A DNA stretch of 64,000 nt. It comes from Tepidisphaeraceae bacterium (lineage in GTDB: Bacteria; Planctomycetota; Phycisphaerae; Tepidisphaerales; Tepidisphaeraceae). Numbering within the stretch: the first letter of the stretch is position 1; the number at the start of each line of letters is the position of its first letter. A program made the position numbers and the translations under genes. This document shows, one piece after another, positions 10,582 through 50,211 of the stretch. The notes below the pieces were generated by a model, which was given only the letters and a program-made list of their open reading frames with translations, was not told where the DNA came from and made no database searches. The stretch lies in NCBI GenBank assembly GCA_035998445.1, contig DASYHQ010000061.1, forward strand, positions 186,001-250,000, read 5' to 3'.

Positions 10582-10720
10582 AGCACGACGTGGAAGAAAT
10601 GCGCGGCGCGTTGCGCTAGCGTTGCATCGATCGCGCAGCGCGCCCGTAGAGATGGATAGTGTGCTCTTTGACAACTGAATAGCCGACGCGCGTGGCATGG
10701 TGAACGTTGTCGTCATCACC

Positions 10721-10750
10721 CGATGGTGCAAAATGGTGCATAATGGTGCA
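10721..10750. repeat. Three tandem 10-bp repeats (NNatggtgca)
   Basis: Reads cgatggtgca, aaatggtgca, taatggtgca, in phase with one helical turn. A fourth partial copy (catggtga) occurs at 10696-10703. It could bind a protein cooperatively, but it lies downstream of both flanking genes, so a regulatory role is doubtful. Confidence 0.5.
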
Positions 10751-10795
10751 TGAATCCATGTTTTGCCTTACCCAGACCGCCGCGGCCGCGATGAT

Positions 10796-29341: not shown

Positions 29342-30214
29342 ATGGGAACCACACCGCTGCCTGAATCGCAAAGCATTGTGTCCGACGCCGTGCGCAAGGT
29401 GACGATGCTCGCGACGTTGCCCGAGGTGACCTCGCGCATCATCCGCACCGTGGAGGACCCCAAGAGCACCGCCAGCGCGCTGCACAAGATCGTGTCGCAC
29501 GACCCGGCGCTGGTCACCCGCATCCTGAAGGTCGTCAACAGTTCGTTCTACGGGTTGCCCGGGCAGATCGGCAGCATCGAGCGCGCGATCGTGCTGCTGG
29601 GGCTGAACGCGGTGAAGAATATCGCCGTCGCCGCCAGCCTCGGACAGATGTTCCGCGGCGCGACACTCTGCGAGGGATACACGGCCAAGGACCTGTGGAC
29701 GCACTGCGTCGCGGTCGCCGTCACGTCGCGCGAGTTGGCCAAGCAGATGAAGGTCTCCCTGGCCGACGAGGCGTTCCTGGCCGGCATGATTCACGACGTG
29801 GGCCTGCTGGTGTCGCTTCAACTGTGGCCCGAGAAGCTGCGCAACATCTGCGACGCGTCGCGCACCGGCCAGCAGCCGTTCTGCGAGATCGAGCGCGCGA
29901 TGGTCGGCGTCGACCACCAGCAGCTGGGCATGGGCCTGGCCGAGCAGTGGAAGTTCCCGCGGTCGTGCCAGCTGGTGGCGGGCTTCCACCATCAACCGCA
30001 GGTGCTGTCGGACGACAGCCGGACGCTGGTGACGATCGTCCACGTCGCCGACACGATCTGCTGCGGCACGGCGCACGGCTTCCCGCTGACGGCCGCCCAT
30101 CAAACGCTCGACGCGCGCCTGCTGGCCGATGCGCACATCACGCCCGCAATCGTGGAAAGCGTGAAGGCCAGGCACGAGGAAATCCTTCAGGCCGCCGAGG
30201 CTTCGCTGGGGTGA
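29342..30214 (+). CDS. HDOD-domain signalling protein
   Basis: A 290-residue protein, essentially a single HDOD domain (about 25-225), an HD-related output or scaffold domain common in bacterial signalling and motility control. The pattern LPEVTSRIIRTVEDPKST, then HDPALVTRILKVVNSSFYGLP and FLAGMIHDVGLL, is diagnostic; the HD pair is kept as IHD, but the distal metal ligands of true HD-GYP proteins are not obvious. No GGDEF or receiver domain is attached. It stands 137 bp after the nonulosonic operon, preceded by gaaggatc, and ends just before the giant palindrome at 30223. Confidence 0.85.
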   Translation: MGTTPLPESQSIVSDAVRKVTMLATLPEVTSRIIRTVEDPKSTASALHKIVSHDPALVTRILKVVNSSFYGLPGQIGSIERAIVLLGLNAVKNIAVAASLGQMFRGATLCEGYTAKDLWTHCVAVAVTSRELAKQMKVSLADEAFLAGMIHDVGLLVSLQLWPEKLRNICDASRTGQQPFCEIERAMVGVDHQQLGMGLAEQWKFPRSCQLVAGFHHQPQVLSDDSRTLVTIVHVADTICCGTAHGFPLTAAHQTLDARLLADAHITPAIVESVKARHEEILQAAEASLG

Positions 30215-30222
30215 TCGTCGTT

Positions 30223-30620
30223 CTTCTGTAGGACAGGCATTCCTGCCTGTCTCTCCCCCCGTATTATCTCTTCTATCTTCTGTGGCACAGGCATTCTTGC
30301 CTGTGTCTCTTCCTTTCTTTTATCTTCCTGGTGGGACGACGGACATTCTTGTCCGGACCCATGCACTTGACGAAGGGCCTCGCAGTTCGTCATCCTGAGG
30401 TACTTCGAAGGATCTCCCCCCATATTCGCTTCGTGAAGGAAGAGATCCTTCGGAGTGCCTCAGGATGAGGAGGTTTCGTCAAGTGCATAGATACGGACAA
30501 GAATGTCCGTCCCACCAAGAGAATAGAGAGAAGAGACACAGGCCAGAATGCCTGTGCCACAGAAGAAAGAGGAGAAGACTACGGGGGGAGAGACCGGCAG
30601 GAATGCCTGTCCAACAGAAG
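30223..30620. repeat. ~400-bp nested palindrome with internal hairpin modules
   Basis: The left arm 30223-30419 and the right arm 30442-30620 are inverted copies with only scattered mismatches and short gaps. Within each arm are smaller palindromes: acaggcattcctgcctgt (30234-30251), cacaggcattcttgcctgtg (30286-30305), ggacattcttgtcc, and tcatcctgaggtacttcgaa with its partner ccttcggagtgcctcagg. The centre is near 30431. The structure occupies nearly the whole gap between the convergent HDOD and histidine kinase genes. Confidence 0.88.
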
Positions 30621-30673
30621 AGGGGGGATTCTTCGCGGCCGTGGGTTTCCGTTGCCTTGGATCGACGAGCGCA

Positions 30674-32350
30674 TTAAACCATCGTCGGTTGTCGGCGGAC
30701 GTCCTTGGCGCCGCTGTCGATGCGCAGGGGAAGTTTGATCCAGAAGGTCGCGCCTTTGCCGGGTTCGCTTTCGACGCCGAGCGCGCCGCCGAGCAGGGTG
30801 GCCAGTTCTTTGGAGATCGCCAGGCCCAGGCCCGTGCCACTGTGTTGGCGGGTGACGCTGCCGTCGATCTGGCGGAACTTCTCGAAGATCATCTGCTGTT
30901 TTTCCGGTTCGATGCCGATGCCACGGTCGGCGACCGCGACGCGTACGCCGTCACCGTCGAGCCGCGCGGTGAGGTCGATGCGCTCGCCAGCGGGGGAAAA
31001 TTTGATCGCGTTCGACAGCAGGTTGTAGAGGATCTGCTGCAGCTTGGCCGGGTCGTTCTGCAGGATCGGGATGCCGGCGGGCACGTCGATGTCGATCGAG
31101 AGTTTCTTCGGCTCGCACAGCGGCTTGAGGATGTTCGCCAGGCCCTCGAACAAATCGCTCAGGCTCAGCGGTTCCGATCGCACCTCCATCCGGCCGGCCT
31201 CAATCTTGGCCAGGTCCAGCAGGTCGTTAATCAGGTCCAGCAGGTTGCGGCCGCTCTGGGCGATGTTCTGCACGTAGCGCGTGCTCTTGGCGTCGGTGGG
31301 GGTCGTGTCCTTCAGCAGTTCGGCGAAGCCCAAGATGCTGTTGAGCGGCGTGCGCAGCTCGTGGCTGACGTTGGCGAGGAACTCGCTCTTCAACCGGTTC
31401 GACTCGTACAACGCCACGTTGCTCTCGGCCATCTGGCCCAATTTCAGGTCGAGGCTCTTGTTGATCGCGCGCAGCTGGTCGGCATTGCCCTTCAGGTTCG
31501 ACAGCATCGTGTTGAACGTCTCCGACAGCTGTTGAAATTCGTCGCCGGTGCTGATGTCGGATCGAATGTTCAGGTCGCCACTGCTGACCTTCTCGGCCGT
31601 CTCCTGCAGCACGCGCACGGGCTGCAGGATAAGGCGCGTGATGATCAGGTAGAGCACGATGATCGCCAGCGTGCCCGCAAACAGGCCGGCCGCCAGCAGC
31701 AGCACGCGGTTCAGCAGCATCTGGTTGTCGTTCAACTGCGATTCGATGTCGACGCTGACGATGCCCAGCAGCGTGCCGCGCGTCGTCGGCTTCACCGCGG
31801 CGCTCGCGAGAACCCGCTGGCCGGCGGACAGGGTGCTGGGTGGCACCGCTGCGGTCGTCGGATTTGCGTTGCCGACACGTGCCGCTGGCGCGGTAGTTGC
31901 AAGACTGCTGACGGTCGCGTGGCAGCGCAGGCACTCGACCGTCGCGCGCAGCTCACGCGCGTAGCGGTATCCGATGCCGTCGGCACGGTCGTAACGCTGG
32001 TAAACGAAGTCCTGCTTATCCAACCGGCGCAACCGCGACGGCGCACGGCTCTCGAATCGCGTGAGCGACTCGGGATCGACGTCGCTGCCGATCAAACGGA
32101 CGCCGTTGCGGGGCACTGTGGAACTGTCGTCGGGCCAGTCCAAGCGCGCGGTGGGATGGGCGATGTGATCGCGGATCGCCTGGTCGGCCAGCACGCTGGC
32201 GGCGCGGCGGTCAACGTCCTTCATCAACCCTTCGATCCGTTGGCCCGGCACCAGCAACGCTGCTGAAATGATCAGCACCACCGCGCCCCCGAACAGGAGC
32301 TGGCACTTGGCCGCAAGCGAGATGTGCGCTTCCCGGATCCGCTTGAACAT
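30674..32350 (-). CDS. Membrane sensor histidine kinase with periplasmic c-type heme motif
   Basis: A 558-residue histidine kinase. Helix 1 is at about 15-35, a sensor domain at 36-212, helix 2 at 214-240, a HAMP domain at 240-290, HisKA with H330 in ANVSHELRTP, and an HATPase domain with NLLSNAIKF, DRGIGI and GTGLGLAI. The sensor carries CLRCH at 140-144, the CXXCH site for covalent heme c, in the setting seen in DUF3365 (Tll0287-like) sensors, so redox or gas sensing is likely. It is divergent from the NtrC-type regulator (241 bp between starts), its likely partner. It converges on the HDOD gene across the giant palindrome. Confidence 0.88.
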   Translation of the reverse strand: MFKRIREAHISLAAKCQLLFGGAVVLIISAALLVPGQRIEGLMKDVDRRAASVLADQAIRDHIAHPTARLDWPDDSSTVPRNGVRLIGSDVDPESLTRFESRAPSRLRRLDKQDFVYQRYDRADGIGYRYARELRATVECLRCHATVSSLATTAPAARVGNANPTTAAVPPSTLSAGQRVLASAAVKPTTRGTLLGIVSVDIESQLNDNQMLLNRVLLLAAGLFAGTLAIIVLYLIITRLILQPVRVLQETAEKVSSGDLNIRSDISTGDEFQQLSETFNTMLSNLKGNADQLRAINKSLDLKLGQMAESNVALYESNRLKSEFLANVSHELRTPLNSILGFAELLKDTTPTDAKSTRYVQNIAQSGRNLLDLINDLLDLAKIEAGRMEVRSEPLSLSDLFEGLANILKPLCEPKKLSIDIDVPAGIPILQNDPAKLQQILYNLLSNAIKFSPAGERIDLTARLDGDGVRVAVADRGIGIEPEKQQMIFEKFRQIDGSVTRQHSGTGLGLAISKELATLLGGALGVESEPGKGATFWIKLPLRIDSGAKDVRRQPTMV

Positions 32351-50127: not shown

Positions 50128-50211
50128 TCGTCATCCTGAGGTACTCCGAAGGATCTCCCCCCGTATTCGCCTCGGGAAGAAGAGATCCTTCGGAGTACCT
50201 CAGGATGACGA
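50128..50211. repeat. Perfect 29-bp inverted repeat (family 3) carrying a stop codon
   Basis: Arms 50128-50156 and 50183-50211 are perfect complements beginning tcgtcatcctgaggtactcc. The same module, less perfect, forms the core of the giant palindrome at 30223-30620. The TGA of the minus-strand phosphatase gene (50200-50202) lies inside the right arm. Confidence 0.85.

Follow-up and report, generated by a model that had tools for sequence, protein, structure and literature searches.

The imperfect palindrome of 400 nt that separates two convergent genes of a Tepidisphaeraceae bacterium is very probably one copy of a nested composite of REPINs, an S1-to-S1 unit with inner REPINs and hairpins that persists at the 3' ends of genes. 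The best reading is of a selfish composite that is tolerated at 3' ends and may in addition serve as a bidirectional 3'-end hairpin. There are good grounds for describing it as one of a set of RAYT-linked mobile hairpins and as a possible 3'-end element. The copying of REPINs is attributed to RAYT (TnpA_REP), a single-strand transposase.

The palindrome and its layers

Within the window (the whole stretch of 64,000 nt that was analysed), local alignment of the left flank with the reverse complement of the right places the palindrome at 30222-30621, within one base of the 30223-30620 given in an earlier note on this DNA. The left arm (30222-30416) and the right arm (30442-30621) lie on either side of a 25 nt centre and are complementary at 163 of 179 ungapped aligned positions (91%), with 16 mismatches and 17 gap columns. 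The predicted RNA fold of the + strand reaches -302.6 kcal/mol, where 100 dinucleotide-shuffled sequences gave -131.4 +/- 6.7 (z = -25, far beyond chance), and that of the - strand reaches -302.9 kcal/mol. Rfam covariance models matched the window at one tRNA only and the palindrome not at all, and no tandem array was found at the palindrome site.

The element takes up most of the 459 bp gap between an HDOD-domain gene (29378-30214, + strand, first ATG of the frame at 29342), whose stop is 7 bp away, and a gene for a HAMP/HisKA/HATPase histidine kinase (30674-32350, - strand), whose stop is 52 bp away. Both genes converge on the element, as the earlier note had described. The nearest named orthologues of the HDOD protein are from Phycisphaerae, Planctomycetota (60-69% identity), which assigns the genome to that group. 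Orthologues of both genes are also convergent at locus L126, with a gap of 16 bp and no palindrome, and no comparable inverted repeat lies beside the HDOD gene in the stretches examined of the relatives' loci; for these stretches a palindrome conserved at the orthologous locus was rejected.

From the outside inward the layers of the window copy are S1, S2, S3, J (a 54-nt hairpin) and B (a REP dimer). S1 is composed of GTAG followed by GACAGGC-ATTCCT-GCCTGTC; as in GTAG REPs, a tetranucleotide of GTAG type stands immediately 5' of a short stem-loop. The tag of S2 and S3 is GTGG. The left S1, TCTTCTGTAGGACAGGCATTCCTGCCTGTC (30222-30251, +), probably the outer end of the mobile unit, has 0 mismatches to the S1 consensus and is, letter for letter, the smaller palindrome quoted in the earlier note. 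The right S1 (30592-30621, -) has 2 mismatches, one in the stem and one that changes the tag from GTAG to GTTG. On the inner side of each S1 is a spacer motif, TCTCCCCCCGTA, common to S1 and the loop of B (30252-30263, +; 30580-30591, -). S2, a hairpin followed by a pyrimidine tract, is at 30282-30307 (+, 0 mismatches) and 30535-30560 (-, 1 mismatch), and a scan marked each copy as terminator-like (30284-30307 on the + strand, 30558-30535 on the - strand). The left S3, GGTGGGACGACGGACATTCTTGTC (30330-30353, +), is the outer part of the hairpin up to the insertion point of J, as delimited by empty S3 sites and by the filled sites L149 and L150; the right S3 is at 30496-30515 (-, 0 mismatches). 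The arms of J are at 30354-30374 (CGGACCYATGCACTTGACGAA, +, 1 mismatch) and 30475-30495 (-, 2 mismatches). Innermost is B, with a CGTC-tagged left REP, CGTCATCCTGAGGTACTTCGAAGGATCTC (30388-30416, +, 1 mismatch), and a right REP in which the tag has degenerated to CCTC (30442-30470, -, 2 mismatches); the centre (30417-30441, assigned to neither strand) is the spacer of this dimer. S1, S2 and S3 are each present as an inverted REP pair forming one joint hairpin, as in REPINs. Cleavage guided by GTAG has been described for a RAYT system, and with a GTTG tag cleavage was abolished in one such system (PMC8266576); given its right-hand GTTG, the window copy may by analogy be immobile.

The alternative offered in the earlier note, that the second arm is a misassembled duplicate, carries almost no probability. 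The assembly is in multiple contigs and palindromes are prone to assembly error, but the arms are imperfect, differing at the mismatches and gap columns given above, the element is interior to a 366-kb contig, and many equivalent elements stand at independent loci with unique flanks, which refutes it.

The repeat family and its insertion history

The modules, which the earlier note had proposed looking for elsewhere, recur throughout the genome as about 300 outer-core matches and 24 complete inverted elements. The outer hairpin core, ACAGGCATTCYTGCCTGT, gave 154 + 145 matches at <=2 mismatches and the inner module B, TCATCCTGAGG...GAAGGATCT, gave 129; both reversed-pattern controls gave 0. Matches often form pairs, a plus copy and then a minus copy some hundreds of bases on, which amounts to nested inverted pairs, and many copies of B form an inverted dimer, ~80-86 bp long, between unrelated flanks. 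The S1...S1 elements examined (n = 24; in one of them the start is a second S1-like copy that belongs to the C5:94443 element) are 222-766 nt long, also with unrelated flanks. Where present, the shells run inward from S1 through S2 to S3, and what they enclose is in most cases a D repeat with a K core of ~190 bp; an H core replaces K in three elements, a RAYT gene in one, and J + B in the window copy. The C5:94443 element has an additional S3-like copy between S1 and S2. S1 pairs without inner shells occur and B pairs also stand alone.

The layers differ in how well they are kept. Exact copies make up 70 of the 109 collected for S1, where 22 of the non-exact S1-like copies (those with 4 mismatches) are probably S2 caught by the S1 pattern, 19 of 73 for S2 and 7 of 48 for S3. 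In the S1 profile (109 sequences) conservation begins abruptly at TCTTCT, outside of which the sequence is unrelated. Because the S1 ends are near-invariant while the inner shells drift, S1 is probably the functional end of a mobile unit and the inner layers its cargo. At the S1 ends no target site duplication was found (mean longest shared flank word 3.46 vs 3.50 shuffled) and no palindromic target, as expected of IS200/IS605-like transposition. A classical MITE of DDE type was rejected: target duplication at the element ends is missing from S1, and J alone shows one, of 8 bp.

Some related structures were seen apart from the S1-bounded elements. At least 31 matches to the K core were counted genome-wide, and the K-core element of L070 has no Rfam match. 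At 10645-10772 of the window a solitary K core adjoins a GTGGCATGGGCGTCTCGCCCATG REP in a convergent gap, and the tandem repeat at 10723 belongs to this core; at 50131-50208 a B (CGTC) dimer stands alone in another convergent gap. Arrays of short palindromes spaced ~20-30 bp apart, unlike REPINs, are found at L090 7000-7410 (G000:C5:147000), L046 15050-15290 (G000:C18:155050) and L089 16980-17240 (G000:C5:136980), and their cores differ (GATGCATC-like, GGTCGACC-like and AATTTCAAATT-like).

S-type REPs are present in 4 of 25 other genomes of the same order, in few copies and simple arrangements, and the K core has one marginal match in other genomes of the order. By sequence comparison the nested expansion appears specific to the window's lineage among the genomes compared.

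SbcD is a subunit of a nuclease that helps to cut long palindromes in other bacteria. The remark in the earlier note that survival of such a palindrome is unusual is overstated: dozens of such palindromes are in this genome, the arms are 9% mismatched, and a search of the whole genome for SbcD (TIGR00619) gave no match. Most relatives are likewise without a match, so loss of SbcCD is at most permissive and was set aside as the reason for persistence.

The order of entry can be followed for the inner layers. S3 exists empty, as GTGGGACGGACATTCTTGTCTGTC; at L149 it is filled with the 54-nt hairpin J, CGGACCTATGCACTTGACGAA...TTCGTCAAGTGCATAGGTCCG, flanked by an 8-bp target duplication (TTCTTGTC/GACAAGAA, two TTCTTGTC copies) and lacking B; at L150 and L098 J is present in S3 and B is inside J, beside its TTCGTC. 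J is not a RAYT-type element, since it carries a target duplication. Another element, E, with ends GGCATCAACATACTTGATGC, is in the S1 or S2 loop at two sites, at one of which AGGAATG is duplicated. REP hairpins serve repeatedly as insertion sites, for J and for E. The modular build by successive insertions suggested in the earlier note is thus upheld for the two inner layers, J and B, by empty and filled versions and target duplications; for the outer three it is plausible, and for S2 and S3, which gave no clean empty-site pair, layered entry is our inference. The outer shells may have spread as an already assembled unit, as their invariant order suggests. At about 900-1130 of L161 a B half is joined to S1 at the common CCCCCCGTATTC motif, as if recombination between layers had deleted the middle.

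Since the window copy reads S3-J-B-B-J-S3 and both of its J flanks equal the outer S3 junction, a single insertion does not suffice, and recombination or conversion of an arm must have come later. The simplest reading would have J[B] inserted in both S3 copies, followed either by recombination between the two J[B] copies with loss of the D-K-D core or by conversion of one arm.

Arms belonging to one copy resemble each other more than they resemble those of other copies (permutation p 1e-4), and the window arm's own partner ranks 2nd of 24 in similarity. Insertion alone does not require such likeness, and it speaks for an origin by fold-back duplication, in which template switching made one arm a local inverted copy of the other and the modules are incidental. 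Such an origin is very unlikely, however: the identical inverted arrangement of shells recurs at >20 loci with unrelated flanks, S1 pairs and B pairs exist independently as noted above, and J and B are explained by insertion fossils with target duplications.

Under the nested REPIN reading, an outer S1 REPIN with its GTAG tags facing outward encloses the S2 and then the S3 REPINs, both of which may have entered by the same route as the other layers; J has entered the S3 hairpin, making the 8-bp duplication, and B, a CGTC-type REP dimer, has entered J. The mirrored position invoked in the earlier note needs correction accordingly: a layer is itself either a hairpin or, as a REPIN, an inverted pair, and newcomers land in older hairpins, because of which the whole forms one long palindrome. 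The stretch from S1 to S1 is probably mobile as a unit, its interior (in other copies a K core, RAYT gene or H core) being cargo.

RAYT genes and known repeat systems

Eight matches to PF01797 were found in the genome, and one of these, at L034, is enclosed by two copies of S1, the only such enclosure seen. At L034 1369-3027 (- strand) the frame of a ThiD2-ThiE gene continues across a REP into the RAYT, upstream of MurJ; the RAYT matches the NCBIfam model for REP-associated tyrosine transposase with E 2e-21 and 76.3 bits, just below the curated cut-off of 80. The ThiDE-RAYT fusion frame is also present in three other genera (L203, L204, L205). Genomes G308 and G297 have the ThiDE-RAYT-MurJ arrangement and G314 has ThiDE-RAYT, surrounded by S-type REPs. 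Because S-type REPs surround the orthologous ThiDE-RAYT in these three other genera, they are tied to the L034-type RAYT, their predicted transposase, and S1 units may be moved by a RAYT of this type. None of the other seven PF01797 matches is flanked by S-type REPs in the loci examined, and several of them sit in different inverted repeats.

At L037 195-1083 a RAYT is enclosed by two nested pairs of another GTAG REP (GTAGGGTGGGG...), and nesting is hence not confined to the S family. At L035 31-2592 (G000:C58:639-3200) a DinG/YoaA-like helicase carries an in-frame RAYT (HUH transposase) domain, with the SATL motif on one side and FxYIKxRLG on the other. In five other genera of the family no stop interrupts this fused frame anywhere along the match (60-65% identity over ~845 aa), while L207 is among the genera with an uninterrupted helicase; besides L035, the loci of the fusion are L206, L208, L209 and L210. 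The fusion looks like an old domestication.

The BIMEs of Escherichia coli are mosaics of inverted REPs at 3' ends, arranged side by side or in tandem; the window element has inverted REPs at 3' ends as well and differs by its concentric shells. A search of the literature on nested REP/MITE palindromes in bacteria found nothing specific. REPINs were defined as REP doublets forming a hairpin, and REPINs inserted into REPINs are known (PMC3116915, Bertels and Rainey 2011). As there, the REP pairs described here are inverted, dispersed, extragenic and RAYT-linked; in contrast, the elements here are concentric nests of at least three REP layers, a hairpin and a CGTC dimer that reach 770 bp, keep a fixed order and number in the dozens, one unit enclosing a RAYT gene. 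Several IS elements are known to insert at the axis of a REP palindrome (PMC1525189), where the REP hairpin is the target as it is for J and E, but the newcomers here are gene-free palindromes.

The sections of Di Nocera 2013 drawn on here (PMC3733652) describe the GTAG and CGTC super-families of REPs, their head-head dimers and 3'-end location, with head-head the privileged dimer type in most families. The GTAG super-family is there reported in Planctomycetes, with some dimers within longer palindromes. S1, S2 and S3 share with it, as so described, the GTAG/GTGG tag beside a 6-9 bp stem, the head-head dimers and the occurrence in convergent and unidirectional gaps; the comparison with this super-family of 24 published families covered tag, stem length, dimer type and gene context, and those sections do not describe the multi-shell order of the window element. 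By the same sections, B resembles the CGTC super-family in its CGTC start, 9-position stem beginning AT, 4-nt loop and head-head dimer, and a degenerate CCTC tag is reported for that super-family too; B differs in a tandem G-A mismatch in the stem and in a tail of CTC, not CCA. The concentric, multi-family architecture of fixed order, in dozens of copies, exceeds the published descriptions of REPs and REPINs, in the sections cited.

Position at gene 3' ends and a possible host role

The location of the elements was determined in a 1.12 Mb sample of long stretches, with genes called by a codon-usage predictor. S1-type outer ends, a few of which are S2 copies caught by the pattern, adjoin the 3' end of a gene in 34 of 37 cases, at a median distance of 35 bp (50% expected; binomial p 1e-7). 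Of the convergent gaps, 19 of 139 contain S1; for co-directional gaps the figure is 5 of 500 and for divergent gaps 2 of 139 (19/139 vs 7/639 for all other gaps, Fisher p 4e-10). No S1/B cluster in this sample is inside a predicted gene, the elements being extragenic like other high-copy GTAG REPs. Between co-directional genes it is usually the arm beside the upstream gene's stop that is intact, and the other arm is often shortened.

Copies persist almost solely at gene 3' ends, and best between converging genes; transcripts of both genes may end or gain stability in the palindrome. A stronger claim, itself compatible with the nested REPIN reading, is that the element is a bidirectional terminator and stabiliser of mRNA 3' ends selected by the host, mobility being only its origin. 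Each transcript would meet S1, S2 and S3 hairpins and pyrimidine tracts, the two genes would be insulated from each other and both 3' ends protected. The strong bias to 3' ends and convergent gaps, the single terminator-like S2 hairpin on each strand and the usually intact arm beside the upstream stop are all in line with this claim. However, the terminator-like scan of a 1-kb region gave a weak count (3 sites vs 0.9 expected) with poor T-runs, 120 of the 139 convergent gaps do without an element, and selection against insertion into promoters predicts the 3'-end bias equally well; the bias is expected from either promoter avoidance or a useful role at 3' ends. Host selection of this kind is a possibility of some substance, though on balance somewhat doubtful. 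Unlikely, if conceivable, is the fuller proposal of a self-nesting transposon family in which S1 RAYT ends take a stack of older REPINs and hairpins along as cargo and disperse whole multi-shell palindromes, up to 770 bp long, each as one unit, and in which these serve the host between convergent genes as 3'-end hairpins in both directions.

The usual description of a REPIN is a simple pair of REPs, and the concentric stacks of this genome are more elaborate. The genome permits direct tests of whether a RAYT moves large structured cargo and of whether hairpins set mRNA 3' ends between convergent genes. Its surviving intermediates, together with the version that carries a gene, provide a readable history of very long palindromes in bacterial chromosomes.
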